This document shows positions 43,643-58,766 of a DNA stretch of 64,000 bases, piece by piece. The translations under genes and the position numbers were made by a program. Source of the DNA: Gemmatimonadaceae bacterium (lineage in GTDB: Bacteria; Gemmatimonadota; Gemmatimonadetes; Gemmatimonadales; Gemmatimonadaceae); contig JADZAN010000005.1 in NCBI GenBank assembly GCA_020852815.1, positions 1-64,000 on the forward strand, read 5' to 3'. The first letter of the stretch is position 1; every line of letters starts with the position of its first letter. Below the pieces are notes generated by a model. It saw only the letters and a program-made list of their open reading frames with translations. It was not told the origin of the DNA and did no database searches.

Positions 43643-45412
43643 TCAGTGACCGCGTCCCGGGCCGTACAGCACCTGCCCGGCGCGAACGCCCGTGTGCTTC
43701 CCCTGCTCGACCGTCACCACGCCGTTCACCAGGACGTACGCGATCCCCGTCGGCGTCGAAATCGGGGCATCGTACGTCGCCTTGTCGTCGAGGGTGGCCA
43801 GGTCGAAGATCGTGACATCGGCCCAGTTCCCCTCCTTGATCGACCCGCGCCCCGCCAGCCGCATCCGCGTCGCCGGCCACGAGGTCTGCTTGCGGATCGC
43901 CTCCTCCAGCGACAGAACCTTCCGGTCACGTGCATAACGAGACACCACGCGCACGGCGTTGCCGTACATGCGCGGATGCGGCAGCCCCGTCTGGTCCACC
44001 GAGCCCGGTGCGAGCGCCGCCCCGGCGTCGCTCCCGATGCTCGTCCACGGAAAGCGCAGCGCCGTCTCGATGTCCTGCTCGCTCATCATGTGGTAGATCG
44101 CCATCACGCGCCCGCTCCCTTCCAGCACGAGGTCCCACGCCGCATCGGCCGGGTCCTTCCCCATTTCCCGCGCAATCTGCGCGATGGTCTTCTGCTGGTA
44201 CTTCACGTTGGCCGGGTTCTGCGCGTTCACCAGCACCACGCCGTCCCACCCGCCAGCTGCCTCGATGATGTTCCACCACCCTGGCGATCCGGTCTGCACC
44301 TCGCGCTTGAGGCGCGCGCGAATCGCCGGGTCGGCGAGGCGCTTGCGCAGCGAATCGCGCCCGCCATCGGCGGCCCACGAGGGAATCGTCGCCTCGAGTC
44401 CGGTCCCGCCGGCCGTGTAGACATAGAGGTCGGCCGCGACGTCAACGTTGCGCGCGCGCGCCGCCTCCACCGCCTGGCGGATGGAGTCCATCAGGATCCC
44501 CCACCCGGGACGGTACGCCACCTTCAGGTGAAAGACCTCGCCCGGGAGCCCCCCTTCCTCGGCGATTCGGATCAGCTCGCGCACCGACTGCACCACCTCC
44601 GCTCCCTCGCCGCGGATGTGCGAGGCGTAGGTCCCGCCGTACTTCGCCGCCACCTTGGCCAGTTCGATGAGTTCCTCGGTGGTGCTGTACGAACTGGGCG
44701 GATAGATGAGCGCCGTCGTCATCCCCATCGCGCCGGCGCGCATCGCCGAGTCCATGCTGGCGCGCATGCGGTCGAGCTCTGCCGCGTTAGGCGCGCGGTT
44801 GAACGACTGCAGCACCGCCACGCGCGCCTGCGTGGCCGAGTAGTAGTTGCCGAAGTTGATGCTGATGCCCTGCTTTTCCAGGTTGGAGAAGTACTCGCCG
44901 ATGCGCGACGCCGGGACGGGAAAGCCCCCCTCGCCGCCGATCGCCGTCGTCACCCCCTGCAGCAGCTTGTTCTGCGCCAACCCGTTGCGCGGCAGCACGC
45001 CGCCGGACTGGTCCATCATGTCGATCCATCCCGGGGAGACGTAGAGCCCCCTGGCGTCGATCTCCTTCGCGCCGCGCCCGGTGATCTTGCCGATGGTGGC
45101 GAACTTCCCGCCGATGATGCCGACGTCGGCCAGGATCCATGGGTTCCCCATCCCGTCGAGCACGCGCCCATTGCGGATGACGACGTCGTAGTCGGCGCCG
45201 CCAAGTCGTGCCCTGGCGTCGAGCGCCTCGCGCGAGGCCTGCGCCGACACGGCAGGGGCCACCGCCGGCGCCGGCGCCGAAACGGGAGCCGTACGACAGG
45301 CGACCACCCCGAGCCCCAGCAGTGCGGACGCCGCGAGCGGGCGAAGGGAAGCGAGCACTCCGGAACGAAGCGAGCGGACGTGGGCGGAACCATGCGAGGC
45401 GCGCGCGGCCAT
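43643..45412 (-). CDS. N-acyl-D-amino-acid deacylase (D-aminoacylase)-like lipoprotein, remodelled metal site
   Basis: A 589-residue amidohydrolase-superfamily protein. The start ATG at 45412 has a good AGGAG 10 bases upstream, and a lipoprotein-like signal ends LLGLGVVAC. The D-aminoacylase framework is clear (YDVVIRNGRVLDGMGNPW, GALIYPPSSYS-type loop, ASHIRGEG, VFHLKVAY, SIGSDAGAALAPG). The first metal motif, normally D-x-H-x-H, reads IDMMDQSG, and the usual GNCG cysteine is replaced by GGEGG. The two later His ligands and the catalytic Asp (GSDAG) remain. It may hydrolyse N-acyl-D-amino acids or D-dipeptides with one metal. A GntR-type operator lies just upstream. Confidence 0.88.
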   Translation of the reverse strand: MAARASHGSAHVRSLRSGVLASLRPLAASALLGLGVVACRTAPVSAPAPAVAPAVSAQASREALDARARLGGADYDVVIRNGRVLDGMGNPWILADVGIIGGKFATIGKITGRGAKEIDARGLYVSPGWIDMMDQSGGVLPRNGLAQNKLLQGVTTAIGGEGGFPVPASRIGEYFSNLEKQGISINFGNYYSATQARVAVLQSFNRAPNAAELDRMRASMDSAMRAGAMGMTTALIYPPSSYSTTEELIELAKVAAKYGGTYASHIRGEGAEVVQSVRELIRIAEEGGLPGEVFHLKVAYRPGWGILMDSIRQAVEAARARNVDVAADLYVYTAGGTGLEATIPSWAADGGRDSLRKRLADPAIRARLKREVQTGSPGWWNIIEAAGGWDGVVLVNAQNPANVKYQQKTIAQIAREMGKDPADAAWDLVLEGSGRVMAIYHMMSEQDIETALRFPWTSIGSDAGAALAPGSVDQTGLPHPRMYGNAVRVVSRYARDRKVLSLEEAIRKQTSWPATRMRLAGRGSIKEGNWADVTIFDLATLDDKATYDAPISTPTGIAYVLVNGVVTVEQGKHTGVRAGQVLYGPGRGH

Positions 45413-45443
45413 GCGGCGGACTCCTGGGGGAGGGAGGAGCCAC

Positions 45444-45457
45444 AATTGTATACAATT
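45444..45457. promoter_or_regulatory. GntR-type operator palindrome before the D-aminoacylase-like gene
   Basis: AATTGTATACAATT is a perfect 14-bp palindrome in the 149-bp gap, 31 bp upstream of the ATG at 45412. The core TTGTATACAA recurs at 49079-49088 beside the GntR/FCD regulator gene. Such T-x-GTATAC-x-A sites are typical for that family. Confidence 0.72.
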
Positions 45458-45561
45458 TCGCGTGCCGTTCGCAACGGCTCCCCGCCCCCGCACGACGCCC
45501 GCGTTCGCACGGCGCCGCCAACGCAGCGCGCCCGCGCGCCCAGCGACGGCGATGTCGGGCG

Positions 45562-46962
45562 CTACTTCACGCCGAACGGCGCCGGTCCCGACTTGGGAAC
45601 GTGACGCGGAATCGCCACACGCCCGCCCTCCACCACCACCCAGCCGTCGCGAATCACCGTCTCCACCTTCGCCAGGTCGTCGAGCCGCTCGTCCGGACGC
45701 CCGCCGACCACCAGCACGTCCGCAAGCTTCCCCGCCTCGAGCGTCCCGAGCTTGTCGTCCATGTCCAGCAACTCGGCGTTCGTCTTCGTGGCCGCCACCA
45801 GCGCCTCGAGCGGCGTGTACCCGGCCGCGGTGAAGTACTTGAGCTCGTTGATGTACGGCGTTGGCAGCTGACGGAACCAGTCGATCACGAGGTCGGTGCC
45901 CACGCCCAGCTTCACCCCCGCGCGCCGCATCCGGCGCAGCACGTCGAGGTTGAGCGAGTCGTTGAAGTTGAAGCGGCGCGACGTCGACGCGAAGTAGCCA
46001 CCCCCCGAGGCGGCGAAGAGAATCGTATAGACATAGACCGTGGGATCGGCCTCCACCTTTCGCTCCGCCATCTTCCGGATCACGTCGTCGGTGCGCGGCA
46101 GCGGGTGCTCGATCATGTCGACGCCGGCGTCGACGGCGCGGTCGATATAGAAGGTCTCGCAGTCGCAGGTGACCTTGAGGCCGAGCGCATGCGCCTCGTC
46201 GACCGCGGCCTTCACCTCGTCGACCGAGAAGTGCGAGGCAATCTTGATCACGTCGGCGCCGCGCCGGAACATGTCGCGCACCGCCTCGCGCCACTGGTCG
46301 GCGCCGGTCGCCGTGCGGATGGAGCCGGTGCTGTTCACCTCCAGCGCCCCCTCCGAGCCGTGCCCGCCGGGCGCGGTGATCAACTGGCCGGCGGCAAAGA
46401 CGCGCGGCCCCACGATGTCGTTCCGCGCCACCCACTCCTTGAGGCGGAAGGGGACGTCGCCCTCGGAGGCCACGTCGCGCACGCTGGTGATCCCGCTCTC
46501 GATGAAGTAGCGCAGGCGCTGCACCGCGCGCAGCGTCCCATCGGGATCGCTCGGCATTTCCGAGTTGGAGTATGGCGGGTCGAAGTACGAGAGGTGCGTG
46601 TGCAGGTCGATGAGCCCGGGGAGCACCGTCTTCCCGCTCACGTCGACGACGCGGGCCTCCCGGGGCCAGTCGGTCTCGTTAGGTCCGAGCACCTTGGCAA
46701 TGCGGTTGCGCGTGATGACGACCGTGGCGGCACGCGCTGGCGCCCCGGTCCCGTCGATCAGGCGCCCCCCGCGCAGCACGATCGTCCCCTCGGGGCCGCG
46801 CGGCGTGGCCGGCATCGGGACACGGCGCGGGTCGTCGGACGTGACCTGGTTGGGACCGAGCCACTTGCGCCGGTCCTGGGCGCGATCCTGCCCCTGCGCC
46901 GCCCACGGCAACGTCACCACGGCGCTCCCCACCAGCAGCGCCATTCGAACGATCGACTTCAT
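45562..46962 (-). CDS. Secreted metal-dependent amidohydrolase (imidazolonepropionase/prolidase-like)
   Basis: A 466-residue exported protein with signal peptide MKSIVRMALLVGSAVVTLPW and a strong GGGAGGGAGC ribosome-binding sequence. Amidohydrolase motifs: HxH in LPGLIDLHTHLSYF, metal-ligand region ADVIKIASHFSVDEV, His in DMIEHPLPR, and the catalytic Asp in LGVGTDLVIDW. Many relatives hydrolyse Xaa-Pro, acyl-Arg/Lys dipeptides or other N-acyl bonds. The permease stop overlaps its ATG (ATGA at 46959), so it is translated with the transporter gene. The operator at 45444 lies downstream, which may separate it from the D-aminoacylase-like gene. Confidence 0.9.
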   Translation of the reverse strand: MKSIVRMALLVGSAVVTLPWAAQGQDRAQDRRKWLGPNQVTSDDPRRVPMPATPRGPEGTIVLRGGRLIDGTGAPARAATVVITRNRIAKVLGPNETDWPREARVVDVSGKTVLPGLIDLHTHLSYFDPPYSNSEMPSDPDGTLRAVQRLRYFIESGITSVRDVASEGDVPFRLKEWVARNDIVGPRVFAAGQLITAPGGHGSEGALEVNSTGSIRTATGADQWREAVRDMFRRGADVIKIASHFSVDEVKAAVDEAHALGLKVTCDCETFYIDRAVDAGVDMIEHPLPRTDDVIRKMAERKVEADPTVYVYTILFAASGGGYFASTSRRFNFNDSLNLDVLRRMRRAGVKLGVGTDLVIDWFRQLPTPYINELKYFTAAGYTPLEALVAATKTNAELLDMDDKLGTLEAGKLADVLVVGGRPDERLDDLAKVETVIRDGWVVVEGGRVAIPRHVPKSGPAPFGVK

Positions 46963-48245
46963 GCTCCCTCCCTGCGTGGCGTGAGTTGAACCCGGTACAG
47001 CACGGCGCCGGCGGCCAGCGCGCCAGCAAAGGTCAGGACGCTCCCCGGGCTCTGGGCCACCGCCAGCGCCAGGAAGGCAATTGAGATCACGACGAGCCCC
47101 CAACCAAAGAAAGCGAGCACCGCGGGCGAAGGCTTGAACGGCGAGCGTTGCCAGGCGACCGGAGCGCGGGCCGGCAGGCGCAACGCCGACAGGCCGAGCA
47201 TGGCCTGCACCGTCATCATGCACATCGCCGTGAGGATGGCGTACTCGCGAATCGACGCGCCGGCGGCGGTGGCGAGGAGCGACGCCGCCCCCAGCGCGAG
47301 CACCGCCGGGCGAGGGATACCCCCCTCGTCCCGCGCGAGCAGGCGCGGGAGGCGCCCGTCGAGCGCCAGGGCGCGCACGTCGCGCGCCTGCGTGAAGAAG
47401 ATCCCGTTCACCGACGTGGCGGCGGCGAGCAGCGCGCTCAGCACCACGGCGCGCGCAAAGCCAGCCCCGAAGTGCTCCTCGGCCATGCGCCCCACCAGCG
47501 CGTTGGCGCTCGCCGGCGTCGTCGTGTCGCTCAGCAGCACCATGGCGATCACGAACAGGAGATACAGCGCGAGCACGACGGCGAACGAGATGGCCAGTGC
47601 GCGCGGGATCGTGCGCCCCGGTTCCCTGATCTCGCCGCCAACCTCGATGAGAACCTGCAGCCCTGCATAGCTGAAGTAGGCCGCCACCGCCCCGGCAAGG
47701 ACCGGCGACCATCCGTGCGGCACCAGGGGCGAGAGTCGTCCCCAGTCACCGGCGACGAAGCCGCCAGCTGCAAACGCGGCCAGCACCACGGCGAAGAAGA
47801 CGACCATGGCCGCCTGCGCCGCCACGGTCACGGTGACCGGCGTGAGGTTGAGCAGCACGAAGGCGAGCACCACCCCCACCGCGCAGGCGCGCGCATCGAT
47901 CGCGGGGACGAAGAAGGCGATGTAGTCGGCGAAGCCGTAGGCAACGAGCGCTGCCCCGATCGCGCCGGCGCAGACGATGAGCCACGCGGTGAGAAAGGCG
48001 AAGAAGGGCGACATGGTCTCGCGCACCCCGACGTACGACGCCCCGGAGACGGGAAAGGCGTTGCCCACCACCGCTCCGGCCACGCACGTGAAGACGGCGG
48101 GGATCGCCGCGATGGCGTACGACAGGATTACCCCGGCGCCGGTCGACGGGAGCAGCTCGGCGGGGAGGACGAAGATCGATGCGCCGATGACGTACCCGAC
48201 CAGCGTGGCCACGGCTCCCCAGAGCCCGATGCGACGTTCGTGCAT
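46959..48245 (-). CDS. APC-family amino-acid permease
   Basis: A 428-residue inner-membrane protein with about twelve hydrophobic helices. It begins MHERRIGLWGAVATLVGYVI and has the APC glycine motif GASIFVLPAELL in TM1 and the TM6-8 region SYAGLQVLIEVGGEIREPGR typical of amino-acid transporters. It likely imports an amino acid or its N-acyl derivative. It lies between the GntR regulator (67 bp upstream) and the amidohydrolase (ATGA overlap), so it is the transport arm of this locus. Confidence 0.92.
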   Translation of the reverse strand: MHERRIGLWGAVATLVGYVIGASIFVLPAELLPSTGAGVILSYAIAAIPAVFTCVAGAVVGNAFPVSGASYVGVRETMSPFFAFLTAWLIVCAGAIGAALVAYGFADYIAFFVPAIDARACAVGVVLAFVLLNLTPVTVTVAAQAAMVVFFAVVLAAFAAGGFVAGDWGRLSPLVPHGWSPVLAGAVAAYFSYAGLQVLIEVGGEIREPGRTIPRALAISFAVVLALYLLFVIAMVLLSDTTTPASANALVGRMAEEHFGAGFARAVVLSALLAAATSVNGIFFTQARDVRALALDGRLPRLLARDEGGIPRPAVLALGAASLLATAAGASIREYAILTAMCMMTVQAMLGLSALRLPARAPVAWQRSPFKPSPAVLAFFGWGLVVISIAFLALAVAQSPGSVLTFAGALAAGAVLYRVQLTPRREGA

Positions 48246-48312
48246 GCGTGGGTCGCTCGCGCCGGCCGCCGTGATGAGTCAGCCGTGCCGCGGCGTCAGG
48301 CGCAACGCATCC

Positions 48313-49026
48313 TCACCACTGCCCGCGCTCGCCCACGTTCGTGATCACGCTCCCCAGGCGATCGGCGGCGTTGCGCCAGTTGGTCTGCACGGACTGCTGT
48401 GCCACGTCGGCATTGCCTGTCTTGATGGCCTTGATGATGGTGACGTGCTCGGCCACCGAGGGGGTGAGGTCGCGGGAGAGGAGGGAGACGTAGATGCGTT
48501 CGTAGCGTTCGGCCTGGGGCTTGACCGCGTCGTGGAGGGCGAGCAATCGGGGGCCGGCGCCGATCTCGACATACCGGCGATGGAACTTCTCGTCGAGTTC
48601 CCAGAGCCGGTTGTGGTTCTGCTGCTTGGCGTCGGCGGCCTTGCGGAACTGTTCGTTGATGGCGGTGAGGTCGGCGGCCAGCTTCTCGCGCTCGGCGGCG
48701 GGGCGCTGGGCGGCGAAGCGCGCGGCGAGCCCTTCGATCTCGGCGACGATGGAGAAGAGTTCGCGCGCGTCCTCGCGCGTGAGGGGGGCGACCGTGGGTC
48801 GCGACTGCTGCAGCGCCGGCGAGTCGAGGATGTAGCCTTCCTGCTGGAGGCGTTGGAGGGCGCCACGCACCGGCGTTCGCGAGACGCCGAGGCGCTGCGC
48901 GACGTCGGTCTCGACGATGCGCGTTCCGGGGGCGAGCTGTCCGCGCACGATGAGTTCGCGGAGCTTGCGGTAGACCAGTTCGGGACGTGCCGCCCGCTGC
49001 GGGGCACCCTTCATCGACGCGGCCAT
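48313..49026 (-). CDS. GntR-family transcriptional regulator, FCD subfamily
   Basis: A 237-residue regulator. The N-terminal winged helix has LVYRKLRELIVRGQLAPGTR and the recognition helix VAQRLGVSRTPVRGALQRLQ. The all-helical FCD effector domain follows (ELFSIVAEIEGLAARFAAQR, then LDEKFHRRYVE and EHVTIIKAIKTGN), containing the metal-binding Asp/His set. FCD members sense small carboxylates or amino acids. A TTGTATACAA palindrome lies 53 bp upstream of its start, in the divergent region, and another precedes the D-aminoacylase-like gene. I infer autoregulation and control of both arms. Confidence 0.93.
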   Translation of the reverse strand: MAASMKGAPQRAARPELVYRKLRELIVRGQLAPGTRIVETDVAQRLGVSRTPVRGALQRLQQEGYILDSPALQQSRPTVAPLTREDARELFSIVAEIEGLAARFAAQRPAAEREKLAADLTAINEQFRKAADAKQQNHNRLWELDEKFHRRYVEIGAGPRLLALHDAVKPQAERYERIYVSLLSRDLTPSVAEHVTIIKAIKTGNADVAQQSVQTNWRNAADRLGSVITNVGERGQW

Positions 49027-49078
49027 CAGGCACCCTCCCCCGTGCGGCAGAAACCGGCTCTTCTCTCGCGGGTCAATT

Positions 49079-49088
49079 TTGTATACAA
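49079..49088. promoter_or_regulatory. GntR-type operator in the divergent regulator/GNAT region
   Basis: TTGTATACAA (10-bp perfect palindrome, extended to TTTTGTATACAATT with two mismatches) lies between the regulator start (49026) and the GNAT start (49158). It can serve both directions and shares its core with the site at 45444. Confidence 0.72.
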
Positions 49089-49157
49089 TTGCTGCGGCTC
49101 CTGACTCTACGACTCTTGTGGAAGGGACGCAAGAGCACCGGCCCCAACGATCCCCGC

Positions 49158-49979
49158 ATGTCCAATCCGCTCGACACCGTCACGATCCGCGACCTCGCCA
49201 CGCTCGAGGAGTACGTCGAGTGCGTGGACCTGCAGGAAGAGACCTGGGGGCGCGGCTTTTCGGAACGCGTTCCCGGGGCAATTCTTCGCGTCTCGCAGAA
49301 GATCGGCGGAGTGACCGCCGGCGCATTCGACTGTAACGGACGAATGATCGGCTTTGTGTTCGGCATGACGGGCATTCGCGACGGGCGTCCGGCGCACTGG
49401 TCCGACATGCTGGCGGTGCGGGAGGAGGCGCGTGGGCGCCACATCGGCGACCAGCTCAAGCACTACCAGCGGGAAAAGTGCATTTCCCTTGGCGTCCAAA
49501 CAATGCTCTGGACGGCCGACCCGCTGGTGGCGCGCAATGCGCACTTCAATATCAACCGCCTTGGGGCGCGCCCCGTCGAGTACGTGGAGAACATCTACGG
49601 CGCCAACACGGGGAGCACGCTGCACGGCGAGCTACCCACGGACCGCTTCGTGTACGCGTGGGAGCTGATGCAGCGCTTCACGCCGTCGCCGGGGAGCGAC
49701 GCGGTCCTGGCGGGCGACGACGACCGTCCGCTGGCGAACCCGCTGGCGCTCGACGGCTTGCCCGCCTTTGCCGCCGATGTCGCGGCGCGCTCGGTGCGCG
49801 TGCAGGTTCCGCACGACCTGGTGGCCGTGCAGGGTGCCGGCGGTGACGACGCGATGCGGTGGCGGCTGAGTGTCCGCGCCGCGTTCGGCGCGCACTTTGC
49901 CCGCGGCCTCAAGGTCGTCCGCTTTGTCCGCGCGCGCGGCGACGCATATCCCTACTACGTTCTCGAAGCCTCGGAATAG
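49158..49979 (+). CDS. GNAT-family N-acyltransferase (probable D-amino-acid N-succinyltransferase)
   Basis: A 273-residue predicted GNAT enzyme. Residues about 20-135 carry the acyl-CoA core with DMLAVREEARGRHIGDQLKH, where R-x-x-H-I-G stands for the usual R/Q-x-x-G-x-G/A pyrophosphate loop, and CISLGVQTMLWTADPLVARN. The N-x-x-R-L-G-A-R segment and the C-terminal half (after about 175) are typical of the larger group found next to menC/NSAR genes. In Geobacillus kaustophilus such a neighbour succinylates D-amino acids. The racemase gene follows after 64 bp that include a hairpin. Confidence 0.82.
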   Translation: MSNPLDTVTIRDLATLEEYVECVDLQEETWGRGFSERVPGAILRVSQKIGGVTAGAFDCNGRMIGFVFGMTGIRDGRPAHWSDMLAVREEARGRHIGDQLKHYQREKCISLGVQTMLWTADPLVARNAHFNINRLGARPVEYVENIYGANTGSTLHGELPTDRFVYAWELMQRFTPSPGSDAVLAGDDDRPLANPLALDGLPAFAADVAARSVRVQVPHDLVAVQGAGGDDAMRWRLSVRAAFGAHFARGLKVVRFVRARGDAYPYYVLEASE

Positions 49980-49993
49980 CACGTTCCGTCATC

Positions 49994-50011
49994 CCCCAGC
50001 CTTCGCTGGGG
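49994..50011. repeat. Intergenic hairpin repeat CCCCAGCCTTCGCTGGGG
   Basis: Second copy of the 7-bp-stem hairpin, between the GNAT and racemase genes. It may reduce read-through or protect an mRNA end. Confidence 0.85.
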
Positions 50012-50043
50012 CAAGCTTTCCCCCGTTTCCCGTTAGTCAACGC

Positions 50044-51165
50044 ATGTTGCAGCTGACCAGCATCACCCTTCGCGAAATCGGGCTCCCGCTGCGCGAGCCG
50101 TTCCAGATCTCCTCCGGCACGATGACCGCGCGCCGCATCTGCCTCCTTGAGCTGCGCGACGCGAGCGGCGCCACGGCGTGGAGCGAGATGGTGGCCGACG
50201 ACACGCCGAACTACACGTCCGAGACGATCGACACGGCGTGGCTGGCGATCACCAAGTGGGTGGCGCCGCGCGTCCTTGGCAAGCGGTTCGACGCGCCGGG
50301 GGAAGTGCACGCGGTGCTGGAGCAGGACTTTCGCGGGCACAACATGGCCAAGGCGGGGGTGGAGATGGGGATGTGGGGGGTCGAGGCCGAGCGGCTGCAG
50401 ATCCCGCTGGCCCGCCTCATCGGCGGGACGCGCGAGCGCATCCCGGTGGGGATTTCGTTAGGCATCCAGGCGTCGCCGGACAAGCTGGTGGAGAAGGCGC
50501 GCGCGGCCCTGGCCGAGGGGTATCGCAAGATCAAGATCAAGATCAAGCCGGGGAAGGACGTGGAGTACGTGCGCGCGGTGCGCGCGGCGTTTCCCGACGC
50601 CCCGATCATGGCCGACGCCAACAACGCCTACACGCTCGAAACCGCCGATGCGCTGGTGGCGATGGACGACCTGAACCTGATGATGTTCGAGCAGCCGCTC
50701 GACTGGGAGGACATCGTCCGGCACGCCGAGCTGCAGCGCCGCCTCAAGACGCCGGTCTGCCTGGATGAGTCAATCACCTCGCTCGCCCGGGCGCAGGACA
50801 TGGTGACGCTCGACGCGGGGCGCATCATCAACATCAAGCCGGGGCGCGTGGGGGGCTTTGGCCCGTCGCTGGCCATCCACGACTTCTGCGAATCGCGCGG
50901 GATCCCGGTGTGGTGCGGCGGGATGCTGGAGAGCGGGATCGGGCGCGCGTACAACGTGGCGCTCGCTTCGCTCCCCAACTTCCAGAAGCCGGGCGACGTG
51001 AGCCCGAGCGCGCGCTACTGGGCGCGCGACGTGGTGACGCCGGAGTGGACCATGTCGCCGGATGGCTACGTGACCGTCCCGCTCGATCGCGCGGGGATCG
51101 GGGTCACGGTCGACCTGGACCGGATCGACGACCTCACGGTGCGACTGGAGCGCGTGGGTGAGTAG
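50044..51165 (+). CDS. N-acylamino-acid/N-succinylamino-acid racemase, enolase superfamily (MenC-type)
   Basis: A 373-residue enolase-superfamily enzyme starting MLQLTSITLREIGLPLREPF. The catalytic K-x-K is K164-I-K166 in GYRKIKIKIKPG, metal ligands are D191 (MADANNAYT), E216 (MFEQPLDW) and D241 (CLDESITS), and the second catalytic lysine is K265 in INIKPGRVGG. All residues needed for 1,1-proton transfer are intact. The fold is shared by o-succinylbenzoate synthase (MenC) and N-succinylamino-acid racemase. The neighbours (GNAT, M20) and the absence of other menaquinone genes favour the racemase. The M20 gene start overlaps its end by 8 bp. Confidence 0.9.
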   Translation: MLQLTSITLREIGLPLREPFQISSGTMTARRICLLELRDASGATAWSEMVADDTPNYTSETIDTAWLAITKWVAPRVLGKRFDAPGEVHAVLEQDFRGHNMAKAGVEMGMWGVEAERLQIPLARLIGGTRERIPVGISLGIQASPDKLVEKARAALAEGYRKIKIKIKPGKDVEYVRAVRAAFPDAPIMADANNAYTLETADALVAMDDLNLMMFEQPLDWEDIVRHAELQRRLKTPVCLDESITSLARAQDMVTLDAGRIINIKPGRVGGFGPSLAIHDFCESRGIPVWCGGMLESGIGRAYNVALASLPNFQKPGDVSPSARYWARDVVTPEWTMSPDGYVTVPLDRAGIGVTVDLDRIDDLTVRLERVGE

Positions 51166-52399
51166 TTCGCCGGTGGTGATCAGCACGCCGACGACGGGGG
51201 TCCCGATCCACCTCGACGCCCCGGCGCGGGCGCGGGATCGCTTCACGCACGACGAACTGGCGCGCCTGGTGGCGCTGCGCCGGGAGCTGCATCGCCACCC
51301 GGAGCTGTCGTGGAAGGAGTACGCGACCTCGGACCGACTCGCTGCGGTCGCCGAGTCGTTAGGCGGGACGGTGACGCGCGTGGCGAACACCGGGATCGTG
51401 GCGCGCTTCAAGGGGCGCGATCCGCTCGCGCCGGTGGTGGCGGTGCGGGGCGACATCGACGCCCTCCCCATCCACGAGGAGACTGGACTCGACTACGCGT
51501 CTGCCGTCCCGGGCGTCATGCACGCCTGCGGGCATGACGTGCACGCCACGTGGGCCATCGGGGCGGCGATGGACCTCGTGCGCCACCCGGCGCGCGGCGA
51601 CGTCCTCGTCGTGTTGCAGCCGGCGGAGGAAATCGGCGCCGGCGCGCCCGCCATCCTCGCCAGTGGTGCGCTGGACGGCGTGGCGGCGATCTTCGGCGGG
51701 CATGTCGACCGGCGCTTCGACGTGGGGCAGGTCATCGCCGAGCCCGGCCCGCTGGCCGCCTCGGCCGACAGCTTCCAGATCACCCTCGTGGGGCGCGGCG
51801 CGCACGGCGCGCGCCCGCACGAGGCGGCCGACGCCGTCGTCGCTGCCGCCGCGGTCATCACGGCGCTGCAGACCATCGTTGCCCGTCGCCTGGACCCCGC
51901 CGCCCCCGCCGTGTGCACCGTGGGGAGCGTACACGCCGGGGTCGCGCCTAACGTGATTCCCGAGACGGCCACGCTCACCGGGACGCTGCGGGCAATGGAC
52001 CCGGACACGCGGCGACGCCTGGGCGAGGAGGTGACGCGACTGGCCACGCAGGTGGGAGAGGCGTACGGCGTGCGCGCCGAGGTGTCGCTCGAACTGGGCA
52101 CGCCGCCGATCGTGAACCCGGTGCGCGAGGCGGCATGGGCGCGGCAGGCGGCCACCACGGTGTTGGGCGAGCACGCGGTCGTCCCCTTCGGGATCACGAA
52201 CATGGGGGGCGAGGACTTCGCCTTCTACATGGAGAAGATCCCGGGGTGCTTCTTGCGCATCGGCGCGCGCGAACCGGGCGGGGCGTCGATCGCCGCACAT
52301 TCGCCGCGCTTCTACGCCGCCGACGGCTCGATCCTGGTGGGGGCGGCGGTGCTGGCGGAGTGTGCGCGCCTGGCGAGCGAGGCGCTGGCGAACGCCTGA
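51158..52399 (+). CDS. M20-family N-acyl-L-amino-acid amidohydrolase
   Basis: A 413-residue metallohydrolase from a GTG at 51158 that overlaps the racemase stop. M20D motifs: DALPIHEETGLDYAS, metal His in GVMHACGHDVHATWA, the glutamate pair in VVLQPAEEIGAGAP, GGHVDRRFDVG, dimerisation-domain GRGAHGARPHEAADA, and NMGGEDFAFYMEKIPG near the end. It removes acyl groups from N-acyl-L-amino acids such as hippurate or N-succinyl-L-amino acids. Next to NSAR and GNAT it would make the D-to-L conversion irreversible. No signal peptide is seen, so it is cytosolic. Confidence 0.9.
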   Translation: MSSSPVVISTPTTGVPIHLDAPARARDRFTHDELARLVALRRELHRHPELSWKEYATSDRLAAVAESLGGTVTRVANTGIVARFKGRDPLAPVVAVRGDIDALPIHEETGLDYASAVPGVMHACGHDVHATWAIGAAMDLVRHPARGDVLVVLQPAEEIGAGAPAILASGALDGVAAIFGGHVDRRFDVGQVIAEPGPLAASADSFQITLVGRGAHGARPHEAADAVVAAAAVITALQTIVARRLDPAAPAVCTVGSVHAGVAPNVIPETATLTGTLRAMDPDTRRRLGEEVTRLATQVGEAYGVRAEVSLELGTPPIVNPVREAAWARQAATTVLGEHAVVPFGITNMGGEDFAFYMEKIPGCFLRIGAREPGGASIAAHSPRFYAADGSILVGAAVLAECARLASEALANA

Positions 52400-52478: not shown

Positions 52479-55280
52479 CTACCTGAGCCACCCTCCCAGG
52501 TCGCGGGCAATCGACTGCAGCATGGCCGGTGTGAGCGACATCGTCACGCGACGCTTCTGGTCCGCATCGACGACTTGCACCTGGTACGCCGCCGAGGGAT
52601 CGGCGAAGTCGGAGGGATGGAAGACGTAGATCCCGGCGTTGGGGACGCTCTTGCGGTCGCGCTTGTACGCGTCCGGGTTGCCGACGGCGTGGATGGTCTG
52701 GCTCTCGAGCGGGATGAGCGGCGTCCCGTTGCGGGTGATGCTCATGGAGTAGAAGTCGCCCTTCCTGGCATCGAGCGGCTTGTCGGGGCGCTGCGGATAG
52801 GCGGCCTTGTCGGGAGAGACTTCGAGGATGACCACGGCACGCCGCTCCTCGCGGTAGTCGCGCCACGCCTTCCACTCCAGCAGCGGATCGGGAGGGCCGG
52901 CGGGGGTCCTGGCGCCGATGTCGAACGGGTTGTCCGACGGCGCCGGCGCCGACTTCGCCATGCGCCAGGCCAGCAGCTGCGGCGTCATGGCCAGCACGTC
53001 GAAGCCGCCCTGCGTGACGCGGTACTGCTGGAGGTCGACGCTTCCCGCCTCGGCGGCGGCGATTGCATCTGACGGAACGGGGCGCGCCGGCCACGAACGG
53101 GTGAGCGTGGTGTCGGGGACGATCGCCGCCGCCGCGCCGCGCGCCGTGTGCAGGAGCGAACGCAGGGCGCCGGCGCCGACAATCGCGGTGCTCCCCCGGC
53201 GGCGGGTGACGATGCCCGCCACCCCACCGGTCCTGGGGTTGAGGACAGGGGCACCTAACGCCGCGTTGCCCACCGCCCCCGCCGCGGCGAGCGTGGTGCC
53301 GCTCACCCTGGCAACGACCACCGGCTGCTGCGTCACGGTGCTGCGCCCCACGACACGCAGCGCAAGGAGCGAGTCGCCCACCGCGGCCGCCGTGGCCGTC
53401 GTGTCGCGCCGCCCCACGTCGAGCGTCCGGCAGCGCCGGCAGCGGCGTGGGGAGACGACAAGTGCCGCGACGCCGTTGGCGCTGTCGATGGAGGCAACGC
53501 TGGCCTTCACCGAGTGTTCGCCGTCGATGAAGACGTCCACGCGCTGGTCGGGGGGGACGAGCGACGCGGCGGTGAGGAAGATGCCTGCCGAGTCGACCAG
53601 GAAGGCGCTCCCACGCCCTGCCGATGACGTCACGAAGAGGACGCCGCTGCGCGCGCGCTGCACGTACTCGCTGTCGGCGCCCGCGGCCGCCGGCAGCGTC
53701 GCGGACGGTGCGCTGTCGCTCGCACTGGGCGCTACCTCGCTGACAATCGAGTCCGTGGCGGCACTGACCGCCGGGGGCTGCTCCCCCTTTCCTCCCAGCA
53801 TCTTCGTGGCGGCGAAGCCGAGGACCGCGATGCCTAACGCGGCTGCGGCCAGCATCCCCAACTTCCCGCCCCGGGCAGCGGCCGGCCGCTCGCTCGGTGG
53901 CGAGAGGTGCCTCGCGTCGGCACCGTCGCCCACCGCCGGGAGCGGGGTGGTGGCGCCGGCGTGGCGCACCTTCACGGTCGGCGTGGCCTTTGTCACGTCC
54001 GGCGCCGGCTCGATGGCGCGGGATGCCGCCGTCTCGACCGTCGGCGCGCGACGTTCTCCCGTGTCGCCGTCGCCCGCCACGCCGGGCGTTGCGGCTGGCG
54101 ACACGGTCGTGGGCGGGAGCGTGGGGCGCGGAATCGCCTGCGACTCGCTGGGCGGGGTCACCACGCTCACCGAGCGCTCCCCCGACGTGGGCGTGGGATT
54201 GAGCGAACCGCGCACCGCCGACATCGAGCGCACCGGCGTGGAGCTGTCGATCGCCATCCCGCCACGGCTCGGCGTCGCCATGCGCTGCGAAAGGAGGAGG
54301 AGGTACGCCTGGTCCTCCTCGGTCAACGGCATCTCGCTCACCGCACCATCGAGTTCTGCCACGAACTCCATCGCGTCTGCATAACGAGCCGACGGTTCGA
54401 CGTCGAGCGCACGGTCAAAGGCCGCCTGCAGCCCGGCCGGCCACTCGACCTCGGGGAGCACCTCGCCGAGGGCGCGCGGCTTGCCCAGCATGCGCGCCAT
54501 GAGCGCGTCGCCCCCCCCGCTCGCCTTGAAGGCGCTCGAGCCCGTGAGGACGCGGAAGGCAATGAGCGCGAGGGCGTACAGGTCCGAACGCTCGTCCAGG
54601 ACATCGCCCGTCAGCTGCTCGGGGCTCATGTAGTCCGGCGTGCCGACGATCATCCCCGTCGACGTGAACTGCTGCGTCCCGCGGCTCATCATCCGCGCGA
54701 TCCCGAAATCGACCAGCTTGACCAGGTCGGTCCCGGCGCGCGTGCGCGCGACCATGACGTTGTCCGGCTTCAGGTCGCGATGGAGAATCCCCATCCCGTG
54801 CGCGGCGACCAGCGCCTCCGACGTCTGCCGAATGATCTCCACCGCGCGCACCGTGTGCAGCCGCCCCTCGCGGTCCAGGATCGACGAGAGCGGTTCGCCG
54901 GGCACGAACTCCATCGCCAGGTAGATCATCCCGTCCGACGTCTCGCCGAAGTCGTAGATCTGGGCGACGTTGGGATGTGAGATCTGCGAGGCATTCTCCG
55001 CTTCACGGTGGAAGCGCGATACCGCCACCGGATCGCCCAGCATCCACGAGCGCATGAGCTTGACCGCCACCTTGCGCTTGATGCGCACGTGCTCCGCCAG
55101 GTACACCTCGCCCATCCCCCCTTCGCCCAGGCGCTCCTTCACCAGGTAGCGATCGGCCAGCACCGTCCCGATCAGCGCGTTGGCACCACTGCCGGACGCG
55201 ACCAAGGCCGCGCCGTCGATCGTGCAGAACCGATCGTCGTCGCCGTACTCCTTACCACATTGCGGGCAGAGCTTGGCCAC
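52479..55280 (-). CDS. Ser/Thr protein kinase fused to a degenerate HtrA-like (trypsin) sensor domain
   Basis: A 933-residue membrane protein. Residues 1-22 are a zinc-ribbon start (CPQCG...FC) with only three Cys; the fourth is Asp22. The kinase (about 45-310) is complete: K74 in VAVKLM, HRDLKPDN at 167-174, DFG at 191-193, and GTPDYMSPEQL. A Pro/Thr/Ser-rich linker leads to one transmembrane helix near 471-494. The extracytoplasmic part, from about residue 540, resembles HtrA (GRGSAFLVDSAGIFLTAASL), but the catalytic residues are lost: the His position reads LTAASLV and the serine loop reads GNAALGAP instead of GNSGGP. A Cys pair is present (CRRC). The C-terminal 200 residues are beta-rich and unknown. 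I infer a kinase that senses envelope state with a dead protease fold. Confidence 0.92.
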   Translation of the reverse strand: MAKLCPQCGKEYGDDDRFCTIDGAALVASGSGANALIGTVLADRYLVKERLGEGGMGEVYLAEHVRIKRKVAVKLMRSWMLGDPVAVSRFHREAENASQISHPNVAQIYDFGETSDGMIYLAMEFVPGEPLSSILDREGRLHTVRAVEIIRQTSEALVAAHGMGILHRDLKPDNVMVARTRAGTDLVKLVDFGIARMMSRGTQQFTSTGMIVGTPDYMSPEQLTGDVLDERSDLYALALIAFRVLTGSSAFKASGGGDALMARMLGKPRALGEVLPEVEWPAGLQAAFDRALDVEPSARYADAMEFVAELDGAVSEMPLTEEDQAYLLLLSQRMATPSRGGMAIDSSTPVRSMSAVRGSLNPTPTSGERSVSVVTPPSESQAIPRPTLPPTTVSPAATPGVAGDGDTGERRAPTVETAASRAIEPAPDVTKATPTVKVRHAGATTPLPAVGDGADARHLSPPSERPAAARGGKLGMLAAAALGIAVLGFAATKMLGGKGEQPPAVSAATDSIVSEVAPSASDSAPSATLPAAAGADSEYVQRARSGVLFVTSSAGRGSAFLVDSAGIFLTAASLVPPDQRVDVFIDGEHSVKASVASIDSANGVAALVVSPRRCRRCRTLDVGRRDTTATAAAVGDSLLALRVVGRSTVTQQPVVVARVSGTTLAAAGAVGNAALGAPVLNPRTGGVAGIVTRRRGSTAIVGAGALRSLLHTARGAAAAIVPDTTLTRSWPARPVPSDAIAAAEAGSVDLQQYRVTQGGFDVLAMTPQLLAWRMAKSAPAPSDNPFDIGARTPAGPPDPLLEWKAWRDYREERRAVVILEVSPDKAAYPQRPDKPLDARKGDFYSMSITRNGTPLIPLESQTIHAVGNPDAYKRDRKSVPNAGIYVFHPSDFADPSAAYQVQVVDADQKRRVTMSLTPAMLQSIARDLGGWLR

Positions 55281-55377: not shown

Positions 55378-55696
55378 CTATTGAGCGTTCCGGATCAACT
55401 GCGCCCAGAATCTGATCCCGTGCGCGAAGTCCGCCAGCGGCGCCCGCTCATTGGTTCCATGCCCTCCCGAGATGAGCGCCGAAGGCCAGGAGGACGGTGC
55501 GTGTGGGCGCGAAGCCCTGGGCGAGGAGGAGGTCGACCCCTTCCAGGATGCCGATGACCGATGCCTTGTCGTCGAATGCCGCGTCGGGGGGCACGACGGG
55601 CGCCGGATGCGGGACGAGTCGCGTGGCGCGCCAACTACCGATTTCGCCCAGGGCAACGACGACCAGGGCGAATACGGCGAGCAGTTTCCTGATCAC
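55378..55696 (-). pseudogene. Remnant of an M20-family (carboxypeptidase S-like) peptidase
   Basis: From a GTG at 55696 the frame gives a hydrophobic N-terminus (IRKLLAVFALVVVALGE). It then jumps to the M20 core segment DDKASVIGILEGVDLLLAQG and PTRTVLLAFG, and then stops. In another frame the sequence continues as GGHGTNERAPLADFAHGIRF and WAQLIRNAQ, which is the usual C-terminus of M20 carboxypeptidases. A normal relative has about 480 residues, so most of the gene is deleted and the pieces are out of frame. It follows the D-aminoacylase-like gene at 55721 by 24 bp and was probably its operon partner. Confidence 0.7.
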
Positions 55697-55720: not shown

Positions 55721-57469
55721 TTACCGAACGACGGTGCCATCCCATCCCGGGCCGCGCAGTGCGCGACCGGGGCGGGCGTTGGTGTGGCGCCCATCGCGCA
55801 GGACGCGGACGCCGTTGACCCACACCTGCTCGACGCCGGTGGAGAGTTGGTGCGGCTGCTGCGGCGTGGCGCGGTCGATGATGGTGGCGGGGTCGAAGAT
55901 GACGACGTCGGCGAACAGCCCTTCGCGCAGGAGGCCGCGATCGCGCAGCGCCAGGCGCGAGGCCACGGCGCCGCTCATGCGCCGCACGGCATCCTCGAGG
56001 GTGAGGAGGTGCTGTTCGCGCACGTAGCGCCCCAGGATGCGCGGATAGGTCCCGTAGGAGCGTGGGTGCACGACGATGGTGGTGCTGTCGGGATCGACGC
56101 CGCCGGCGTCGGAGCCGATGGAGACCCAGGGGGACTTGAGCTGCATGCGCACGTTCTCCTCGGACATGGTGAAGTTGATCTTGTCGAGGTCGTGCCCTTC
56201 GGCGAGGATCAGCTCGATGACGGCATCGGGCCAGGGGCGGTTCATCGCGGTGGCAATGTCGGCGAGGTACTTCCCTTCGTACTGCTTGTGCTCGGCCCTG
56301 GTGAACCCGCCGATCATGTACGCGCCGGGCCCTTCCAGCTGGCAGAGCGGCGCCCCGTTCATGTCTGTCATCTCGCGCACGATGCGCGCGCGTGTGTCAG
56401 CATTCCGCAGGTTGTCCATCAGCTTCCCGTTCTCGGCGGCCCAGTCGGGGAAGCACTCGCCCAGGTTGTTGCCGGAAAAGGGATAGGGGTACATGGTGGC
56501 GGCAACGTCGAAGCCGGAGGCGCGCGCCGAGTCGATCCTGGCGACCATGGCGGGCGCCTTGCCCCAGTTGCGGCGGTTCGACGCCTTGAGGTGATAGATG
56601 TCGACGCGCACGCCGCCCTCGCGCCCGATGCGGAAGGCCTCGTCCATGGCCTGGAAGAGCGAGTCGTCCTCCGAGCGCATGTGGGTGATGTAGCCCCCCT
56701 GGAAGGGGGCCATGGCCTTCGCCATCTCGACTAACTCGCCGGTGCTGGCGTACGACCCTGGCGGGTAGATGAGTGCGGTGGAGATGCCGAAGGCGCCGTC
56801 GGCCATGGCGCGCCGGACGACCGCGCGCATCGTGTCCGATTGCGAGGCGTTAGGCATCCCGGGCGCCTGCCCCATGACGTACGCGCGTACGGTGGTGGCG
56901 CCAAGGTAGGATCCGGCGTTGACCGAGATCCCGTTGCGCTCCATGGCCGTGAGCCAGGCGCCAAAGCCGCGGGAACCGTGAAAGCCGGGCTGCAGTGCCG
57001 CGCGCCTGGGGGCGAAGGCGTCGGCGCCGAGGAGCGTGTCGACGTGCGCATTGGCCGGCGCGGGGGTCGTCGCTTCGCCGAGTATCTCGCTCGTGACGCC
57101 CTGCGTGACCTTGGAGAGGACGCGTCCATCCTGCCAGAGGAAGGCATCCCACGAGTGGGACTGGATGTCGATGAAACCCGGGGCTACGACGCGATTGCGA
57201 GCGTCGATGCGTTCCCGCGCCGTGGCGTTGCGCAAGCCGCCGGCAATGGTGATGGCGGCGATGCGGTCGCCGCGAATGGCGAGGTCGCCGGCGAACCACG
57301 GATTGCCGCTCCCGTCAACGATGCGCCCGTTCTCGATGATGACGTCATAGGGAGCGCGGTCGGGGACGAGCCGCGGCGCAGGGCCACGGCTACACGCCGC
57401 GAGCATGAACGCCGCGAACACCGGGGCGATCCGGATCGTCCCACGAAGGGCGCGCGAATGGGAGGACAT
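55721..57469 (-). CDS. N-acyl-D-amino-acid deacylase (D-aminoacylase)-like lipoprotein, second paralogue
   Basis: A 582-residue amidohydrolase with lipoprotein signal (VFAAFMLAACSRG). Same family order as the protein at 43643: YDVIIENGRIVDGSGNPW, GVTSEILGEATTP, ALIYPPGSYASTGELVEM, YITHMRSEDD, VDIYHLKASN, SIGSDAGGVDPDS. The first metal motif is IDIQSHSWD, so one of the two His is Gln, and the usual Cys loop reads GEATT. It is likely an envelope hydrolase of N-acyl-D-amino acids or D-containing dipeptides. No GntR-type palindrome precedes it. The region upstream is shared with the divergent TonB-plug gene. Confidence 0.88.
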   Translation of the reverse strand: MSSHSRALRGTIRIAPVFAAFMLAACSRGPAPRLVPDRAPYDVIIENGRIVDGSGNPWFAGDLAIRGDRIAAITIAGGLRNATARERIDARNRVVAPGFIDIQSHSWDAFLWQDGRVLSKVTQGVTSEILGEATTPAPANAHVDTLLGADAFAPRRAALQPGFHGSRGFGAWLTAMERNGISVNAGSYLGATTVRAYVMGQAPGMPNASQSDTMRAVVRRAMADGAFGISTALIYPPGSYASTGELVEMAKAMAPFQGGYITHMRSEDDSLFQAMDEAFRIGREGGVRVDIYHLKASNRRNWGKAPAMVARIDSARASGFDVAATMYPYPFSGNNLGECFPDWAAENGKLMDNLRNADTRARIVREMTDMNGAPLCQLEGPGAYMIGGFTRAEHKQYEGKYLADIATAMNRPWPDAVIELILAEGHDLDKINFTMSEENVRMQLKSPWVSIGSDAGGVDPDSTTIVVHPRSYGTYPRILGRYVREQHLLTLEDAVRRMSGAVASRLALRDRGLLREGLFADVVIFDPATIIDRATPQQPHQLSTGVEQVWVNGVRVLRDGRHTNARPGRALRGPGWDGTVVR

Positions 57470-57602
57470 GTCGGGTTTGGGGGCGCGATGGGGGCGGGTA
57501 GTGCTTTTCTCGCGCCGGAAGGGTACGATATCTGTCGCCTGCTGGCCATCACCCCCTTGGATGCCACGCGCACCCGCCCCGGCGGGGGAGGTTCAATTCG
57601 TG

Positions 57603-58766
57603 ATGTACACACGCCCATCGCGCCCCGGTTCCGGTCAGCGCGCTGTTGTCGTCGCCGTCTTTCTCGCCTGCCTAACGGCGCTCCCCGCCGCGGCGCAGAA
57701 GGGCGAAGTCGGGACCGGCGGGATCAAGGGGATCGTGCGAGACTCCAGCGGTGCCGCGGTGGAAGGGGCGCAGGTATCGGTGAAGGGGGTGGACATCCAC
57801 GGCGAGAGCGGCGCGGGGGGTGAGTTCCTCTTCGCCAAGGCCAATGCCGGAGCGCTGACGATCCAGGTGCGACGCATCGGCTTCCTTCCCGAAACGGCCA
57901 CCGTGAACGTCCTTGCCGGGACGACCATCAACGCGGAGTTCACGCTCAGGCGCGTCGTGGTGGCGCTCACCCCGGTGGTGATCACGGGGCGTCGCGAGAT
58001 TACGGGGCGCATGGCCGGCTTCTACCAGCGCCTGTCGCGTGGACACGGGCACTTCTTCACGCGCGAGCAAGTGGACAGGCGCAACCCGGCCAACATGACG
58101 GACCTGTTCCGCATGATTCCCGGGGTGAGAGTCGACTCGCGCGGCTTCAACAACCATGTGCGCTTCCGCGGCGCCCGCTGCGCCCCGCTCACCTGGCTCG
58201 ACGGGTCGCCGCTCTATGCGGGCGAATTCGACCTCGACTCGGTGGATCCGCGCTCGTTCGAGGGGATCGAGATCTACAGCGGCGCGGCGTCGGTTCCCGC
58301 CGAGTTCCAGGGGAACCGCTCGCTGTCCAGCGCTTGCGGGACGATCATCCTCTGGTCCAAACAGGGAGAGCTGCGCCCCAAGAAGCGGAAGAAGGGCGAC
58401 CTCTCACCGGCCGCCGAGATCGCGCAGGCGGTGCAGCAGCTCTCCGTCTTCACCCCCGACCAGGTGGACCAGCAGGCGCGCGTGGACTCCACGCGGCTGC
58501 AACGCCCGGTGTATCCGGACTCGCTGTACACCAACATGGTGCCGGGGCGCGTGCTGGCGGAGTTTGTCGTGGACGCGAAGGGCTCGGTGAACCTCGACAC
58601 CTTCAACGTGGTGACCACGACGCACCCCGGCTTCATCGAGTCGGTGCGCATCTCGCTGCGCGACCAGGCGTTCTACCCGGCGGTGCGCAAGGGGCAGCCG
58701 GTGCAGCAGGTGGTGCAGCTCCCCTTCACGTTCATTCCCGACTCGACGGCGTTGCGCAAGCGTTAG
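57603..58766 (+). CDS. Hybrid protein: carboxypeptidase-regulatory-like domain, TonB-receptor plug and TonB C-terminal domain
   Basis: A 387-residue exported protein. It starts at ATG 57603 (a GTG precedes it directly), with the signal ending LTALPAAAQ. Domain order: a CarboxypepD_reg beta-sandwich (GIKGIVRDSSGAAVEGAQVS), a plug-like domain (NPANMTDLFRMIPGVRVDSR, GCAPLTWLDG-type Cys pair, FEGIEIYSGAASVPAEF), a Lys-rich linker, and a TonB C-terminal domain (PVYPDSLYTNMVPGRVLAEF and following strands). There is no beta-barrel. It may act as a periplasmic bridge or decoy in TonB-dependent transport. Its TAG overlaps the fabI stop at 58763. Confidence 0.8.
   Translation: MYTRPSRPGSGQRAVVVAVFLACLTALPAAAQKGEVGTGGIKGIVRDSSGAAVEGAQVSVKGVDIHGESGAGGEFLFAKANAGALTIQVRRIGFLPETATVNVLAGTTINAEFTLRRVVVALTPVVITGRREITGRMAGFYQRLSRGHGHFFTREQVDRRNPANMTDLFRMIPGVRVDSRGFNNHVRFRGARCAPLTWLDGSPLYAGEFDLDSVDPRSFEGIEIYSGAASVPAEFQGNRSLSSACGTIILWSKQGELRPKKRKKGDLSPAAEIAQAVQQLSVFTPDQVDQQARVDSTRLQRPVYPDSLYTNMVPGRVLAEFVVDAKGSVNLDTFNVVTTTHPGFIESVRISLRDQAFYPAVRKGQPVQQVVQLPFTFIPDSTALRKR

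Follow-up and report, generated by a model that had tools for sequence, protein, structure and literature searches.

A probable receptor-type kinase of Gemmatimonadaceae that combines an HtrA-fold pseudoprotease with an undescribed C-terminal domain

Bacteria have numerous receptor kinases, few of whose sensor domains have a known ligand. The locus studied here raises the question of which part would do the sensing in a kinase whose ectodomain includes a degenerate protease fold. It lies in what we call the window, the whole stretch of 64,000 nucleotides that was analysed (Gemmatimonadaceae bacterium, GenBank assembly GCA_020852815.1, contig JADZAN010000005.1). The original prediction, made from the letters alone, described a Ser/Thr kinase with a catalytically dead HtrA-like domain and assigned to that domain the sensing of unfolded envelope proteins. 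We lean, if only somewhat, towards another division of labour, in which the protein would be a receptor-type Ser/Thr kinase whose ectodomain, chiefly its C-terminal domain (CTD), binds an envelope ligand, with the pseudo-HtrA domain as a non-cutting accessory. The parts of the gene are listed here in the order of the protein.

52479..55280, minus strand: whole kinase gene (933 aa, GTG start), comprising kinase, transmembrane helix, pseudo-HtrA domain and CTD
55212..55268, minus strand: N-terminal ribbon-like motif CxxC-x10-CxxD, residues 5-23 (Pfam Zn_Ribbon_1, 2.4e-4, below cut-off)
54312..55160, minus strand: kinase domain, about residues 41-323 (Pfam Pkinase, 2e-42; NCBIfam PknB_PASTA_kin span 37-323)
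53805..53861, minus strand: predicted transmembrane helix, residues 474-492 (hydropathy maximum 2.07)
53121..53672, minus strand: pseudo-HtrA (S1C-fold) domain, residues 537-720 (Pfam, profile, structure alignment)
53562..53564, minus strand: S573 at the catalytic His column (alignment with intact relatives)
53472..53474, minus strand: G603 at the catalytic Asp column (alignment with intact relatives)
53430..53441, minus strand: CxxC (C614, C617), the sole two Cys of the window ectodomain
53256..53258, minus strand: L675 at the catalytic Ser column (alignment with intact relatives)
52482..53120, minus strand: CTD, about residues 721-933 (profile A6; model pLDDT 74.5, pTM 0.77)

The possibility that this is a pseudogene or an artefactual reading frame was rejected, because orthologues of the same architecture are present in other genera and because dN/dS lies below 1 for every domain in the three pairs compared of this architecture (type I below), a ratio to be read with dS at about 1 or above 1 in several comparisons. 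Pfam finds the kinase domain, a Trypsin_2 domain below threshold and a weak zinc ribbon. Of the 17 fused proteins, 15 have their hydropathy maximum between kinase and ectodomain; in L021 and L072 it falls at other positions. The topology that we infer places the ribbon motif and the kinase domain inside, followed by one membrane helix and, outside, by the dead HtrA fold and then the CTD.

The identification as a Ser/Thr kinase holds. The window protein carries VAVK, HRDLKPDN, DFG and an activation-loop TSTGxxVGTP. Each of the 17 fused proteins, of which nine belong to type I and eight to type II, keeps the Lys, the DFG and the activation-loop motif together with HRDLKPDN or HRDIKPDN; judging by these intact catalytic motifs, the kinase looks alive. 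Like the PASTA kinases (PknB/Stk1) it has a kinase domain, a transmembrane helix and an extracytoplasmic part. However, an assignment to that group was rejected, as the match to PknB_PASTA_kin reaches 265.9 bits against a cut-off of 450 bits and the Pfam scan finds no PASTA repeats. A role as an anti-phage kinase was also considered and set aside: there are PADLOC matches in 33 families, every one of the 25 listed maps to the kinase domain and the linker that precedes the membrane helix, and the matches are therefore generic.

The protein starts with CPQCGKEYGDDDRFCTIDG, in which, as had been claimed, the ribbon consists of three Cys with an Asp in place of the fourth. All 17 fused kinases have the same C, C, C, D set and none has a four-Cys set. 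When 20 other genomes were searched with the window's ribbon and kinase, the best-match kinase was readable in 18, of which two have no ribbon and 16 have one, with the Asp in all 16. Since the Asp is invariant in the 17 fused and the 16 other ribbon kinases, the three-Cys ribbon is the norm of the clade and not a degenerate form. Aspartate is able to act as a zinc ligand, and the window ribbon can be regarded as a putative zinc-binding motif. The idea that the ribbon is standard equipment of the host's kinases was rejected: the 5.4 Mb host genome has 29 kinase matches, and among the 28 others, 23 of which are readable by motif, none of the 23 has a ribbon. Across genomes, ribbon kinases are widespread (16 of the 18 read, L132-L149), and the tails behind their kinase domains are varied, several of them helical-looking and ending near Cys; swapping of sensors among ribbon kinases looks common.

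The evidence for an HtrA fold in the trypsin-like domain is as follows. Trypsin_2 covers its full profile (1-144 of 144) at 7.9e-05, with 23.9 bits against a gathering score of 27.6. A profile built from 24 ectodomains recovers HtrA structures, with HTRA2 at 2e-23. The original prediction of a retained HtrA fold was also borne out by structure prediction and comparison: in the ectodomain model (pLDDT 77, seven sequences), the first 184 residues align to DegQ with Z 21.2 (2.4 A over 169 residues) and to DegS with Z 20.6. Residues 537-720 are thus predicted to have the chymotrypsin-like HtrA fold.

The catalytic triad, by contrast with the intact relatives, is lost at all three positions of the window domain. 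The loss of the His and Ser motifs had been recognized, and S573 and L675 stand in their columns; the Asp, which had gone unnamed, is lost as well (G603). In the ten type I domains, nine of which are seen joined to a kinase while the tenth (G181) begins at a contig edge, neither His nor Asp is present in any, and the Ser column holds Ser in two of ten, in an altered context. An intact triad elsewhere in the domain, which would have overturned the loss, was looked for across these ten domains and was not found. No alignment column holds more than three His, and four of the ten domains contain no His whatsoever, so the triad cannot have moved and a relocated triad was rejected. As far as its residues tell, the window domain is an HtrA-fold pseudoprotease that would not cut. 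Its active-site segments vary between lineages. The domain itself is constrained, with dN/dS of 0.41, 0.32 and 0.32 in the three type I pairs.

The ectodomain continues beyond this fold into the CTD, which the original prediction had overlooked, together with the CxxC pair. Comparison of the CTD model with solved structures gives weak matches only (best Z 6.2, best Foldseek E 9.3e-3), which by Foldseek and VIA-align are Ig-like or to DUF4426. The CTD is known so far solely from the present group and is a domain undescribed before. It evolves under constraint (dN/dS 0.26, 0.40 and 0.40 in three type I pairs and 0.10, 0.13 and 0.28 in three type II pairs), although in two of the three type I pairs it is no slower than the pseudo-HtrA domain (0.40 and 0.40 against 0.32 and 0.32).

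Relatives were collected with an ectodomain profile in 179 genomes of the family, with at most ten candidates scored per genome, and with a CTD profile in 395 genomes of the phylum, 24 of which gave a match. They fall into four architectures. Type I (n=10) is that of the window, kinase, transmembrane helix, pseudo-HtrA and CTD. Type II (n=8) has kinase, transmembrane helix, linker and CTD, and in none of the eight does Pfam detect Trypsin at E up to 10; the pseudo-HtrA domain is thereby absent from 8 of 18 fused members. Type III (n=7) is a stand-alone protein in which His and Asp are present in all seven and Ser in none, with Thr in its place and Leu for Gly two residues before; one more genome, G071, has just a C-terminal fragment of 112 aa. 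Type IV is likewise stand-alone, probably secreted, with the triad intact in four of four (G044, G054, G275 and G331, from other families of the phylum), and the match of the G331 protein to the CTD profile is partial (9-141 of 217). The CTD is the ectodomain part common to all four types, a constancy that is partly built in because the searches used the CTD. Kinase-HtrA joins without a CTD would escape a CTD search, and partial-match frames were therefore read as a check: the seven longest among the partial matches listed (675-965 aa) have no kinase motif, and all seven have the His and Ser triad motifs.

Two observations concern single members of this set. In G331 (L111, 4869-6581, plus strand), the intact-triad Trypsin_2 protein with its truncated CTD is followed in frame by the ATPase domain of a histidine kinase (HATPase_c, 1.2e-18), near a contig end; this join is either a second kind of kinase fusion or an assembly or gene-fusion artefact. 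Seven named records have a related ectodomain, five labelled Gemmatimonadaceae, one Gemmatimonadetes and one Chthoniobacterales. The contig stretches L078 and L079 are almost identical (3799 of 3800 bases compared) and were assigned to a Gemmatimonadaceae bin in one case and to a Chthoniobacterales bin in the other, probably through contamination of one of the two bins.

In the ectodomain tree, rooted on type IV, the fused rows are monophyletic (95/99), as are those of type II (100/99), while the branching of type I is partly unresolved and three type I lineages sit on long branches. As Ser is gone in both types I and III, the nucleophile was probably lost before fusion, and the kinase may never have been joined to an active protease. 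The route that we envisage would start from a secreted HtrA-type protein with a CTD that loses its nucleophile. In one branch this protein would have remained a separate gene, in genus g22 directly behind a ribbon kinase gene; in the other it would have been joined to a ribbon kinase, whereupon His and Asp would have been lost too. Later, one branch of fused kinases would have dropped the protease domain and kept the CTD.

The gene pairing in g22 is itself real. Four of the seven type III genes, all in g22, lie directly downstream of a kinase gene, and in three of these four pairs the partner's in-frame ATG overlaps the kinase stop by one base, the first ATG of the fourth being five bases on. 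The ribbon is seen in three of the g22 kinases, and the fourth kinase is cut by a contig end. For the type III genes of genus g32, no kinase motif was found in the neighbouring stretches read. In a kinase tree with the host's kinases alone, the 17 fused kinases form one clade with the g22 kinases as sister (97/97). This sister relation was dropped after 14 further ribbon kinases were added, which left the fork open: the ribbon kinases, including those of g22, group in a single clade (100/99), in which the fused kinases again cluster (96/92) and the g22 kinases become one of several unresolved branches. They are not specially close to the fused kinases, and a direct path from operon to fusion is therefore unsupported by the tree. 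In the same larger tree, the unfused kinase of G024 falls inside the type II part (94/84), so that either its CTD was lost or the history of fusion was more complex.

These comparisons bear on which part of the ectodomain would be the sensor. Because eight fused kinases keep the CTD without the protease domain, the CTD is the likelier ligand binder, and the pseudo-HtrA domain is more likely a retained scaffold or an accessory binding site in type I. Counting against the CTD as a constant sensor are the 491-aa ribbon kinase of G024, which is close to the type II kinases and has no CTD, and the constraint on the pseudo-HtrA domain as well. Under the CTD-centred reading, an envelope ligand would be bound by the ectodomain, mainly by the CTD, and the pseudo-HtrA barrel would act as a spacer, an oligomerization surface or a co-binding site. 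The kinase domains would thereby be brought together, presumably as dimers, and would trans-phosphorylate the activation-loop Thr and phosphorylate cytoplasmic targets.

The original prediction of a dead-protease receptor kinase keeps its sense in one respect, that of a non-catalytic, receptor-like role; its second part, in which unfolded envelope proteins are captured by the dead HtrA domain itself and phosphorylation carries the signal, as in a DegS-like stress sensor that does not cleave, is in our judgement unlikely. HtrA proteins do bind unfolded polypeptides, and the fold (Z 20.6 to DegS) and the constraint on the domain are consistent with such a function. However, DegS recognizes unfolded outer-membrane proteins through its PDZ domain, and no PDZ turned up in Pfam scans of the window protein (E up to 10), of nine whole or partial relatives (E up to 1) and of the eight type II kinases. 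The loss of the domain from 8 of the 18 fused members and the differences in its active-site segments among lineages also argue against it, and the claim finds no support here.

A second alternative starts from the CxxC pair, which on the pseudo-HtrA domain might sense oxidation or metal in the envelope. Among the 21 trypsin-bearing members, 19 have CxxC or CxxxC at the C614/C617 site: nine of ten in type I, all seven in type III and three of four in type IV. The columns of the pair are among the best kept of the type I domain, and the two canonical HtrA proteins read (from four loci) lack Cys in this domain altogether. Precedent comes from MamO, an HtrA pseudoprotease of magnetosomes in which the triad is degenerate and residue 193 is not Gly, and which was repurposed for metal binding (PMC4794232). 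The pair has outlasted the triad. Nevertheless, it is also present in three of the four intact-triad members and may be a plain disulfide staple, and neither G029 nor G054 nor any of the eight type II kinases has it, for which reasons a sensory role seems to us improbable; the pair may be either such a staple or a redox or metal site. MamO resembles the window protein in its repurposed HtrA/trypsin-2 domain with a degenerate triad but is not a kinase, and its surface di-His metal site was not found in type I, where no column has His in more than 3 of 10 and four of ten domains are without His.

Returning to the CTD-centred receptor, its nearest known counterparts each share one part of it. The HtrA/Deg proteases (DegQ, DegS, HhoA) share the domain fold (Z about 20-21), whereas the window domain lacks the triad, shows no PDZ and is joined behind a kinase. 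RsgI9 of Clostridium thermocellum is an anti-sigma factor whose protease-like S1C domain reportedly binds polysaccharide (PMC12203970); it is likewise a transmembrane signalling protein with an extracytoplasmic S1C domain (window model against 7sjy, Z 20.5), but is not a kinase and has an NTF2-like domain. The principle of a repurposed HtrA-fold domain is already known from MamO and RsgI9. What appears new is the combination of kinase, pseudo-HtrA and CTD with surviving intermediates. A kinase with an HtrA pseudoprotease ectodomain was not found described in the titles and abstract beginnings searched, a coverage that leaves most subscription journals outside. Taken as one series, the family may hold a record of the path from enzyme to receptor, from secreted protease through a dead partner encoded next to a ribbon kinase and a fused dead ectodomain to the CTD alone as receptor domain, a reading that is attractive and that we offer only tentatively. 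As the protease-to-ectodomain states survive in related genomes, the acquisition of a sensor by a receptor kinase becomes testable by part swaps and deletions, and attention shifts from the conspicuous dead protease to the undescribed CTD as candidate ligand binder.

The third alternative comes from the neighbourhood of the gene.

50044..51165, plus strand: N-acylamino acid racemase-like enzyme of the enolase superfamily (PDB 2zc8, 2.6e-92)
51158..52399, plus strand: M20 amidohydrolase, convergent neighbour of the kinase
55721..57469, minus strand: amidohydrolase, upstream neighbour (NF006560, 2.3e-55, below cut-off), which we take to be of the N-acyl-D-amino-acid deacylase type

Of the ten type I genomes, eight have the M20 gene convergent with the kinase (in G029 across two contigs, the second of which carries the gene end), six have the racemase in the same stretch and seven have the upstream amidohydrolase. 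This arrangement suggests a link to the salvage of D- or N-acyl amino acids, and the kinase might report D-amino acids, N-acyl amino acids or wall peptides in step with these genes, the racemase of which matches N-acylamino acid racemases closely. Set against this, 16 racemase loci (15 in genomes without a type I kinase and one on another contig of G007) have no such kinase adjacent, although M20 stands beside the racemase in 12 of the 16. The type II and III genes, moreover, sit at loci other than the M20/racemase stretch, and the common position may reflect inheritance alone. Because the racemase genes occur elsewhere without the kinase, the D-amino-acid link is kept only as a rival, and one of little probability.

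Around the kinase, the window holds at 46959-52399 a permease, a divergent GntR regulator, a GNAT-like gene, the racemase and the M20 gene, the last two overlapping; the whole resembles a set for converting D- to L-amino acids. The gene at 49158-49976 is GNAT-like by our assumption and gave no family or PDB match. This island is flanked by a pair of amidohydrolases, at 43646-46435 and at 55724-57469 on the minus strand, that both match the NCBIfam subfamily NF006560 below its cut-off. Between the kinase and the upstream amidohydrolase, an 82-aa reading frame (55448-55696, minus strand) resembles by eye a piece of an M20 peptidase and has no Pfam match; it is perhaps a gene remnant. Beyond the upstream amidohydrolase, the product of the gene at 57465-58763 (plus strand) unites a TonB plug and a match to the TonB C-terminus with a carboxypeptidase-regulatory-like domain, and a relative of this product is encoded near the kinase in G002, G007, G030 and G183.
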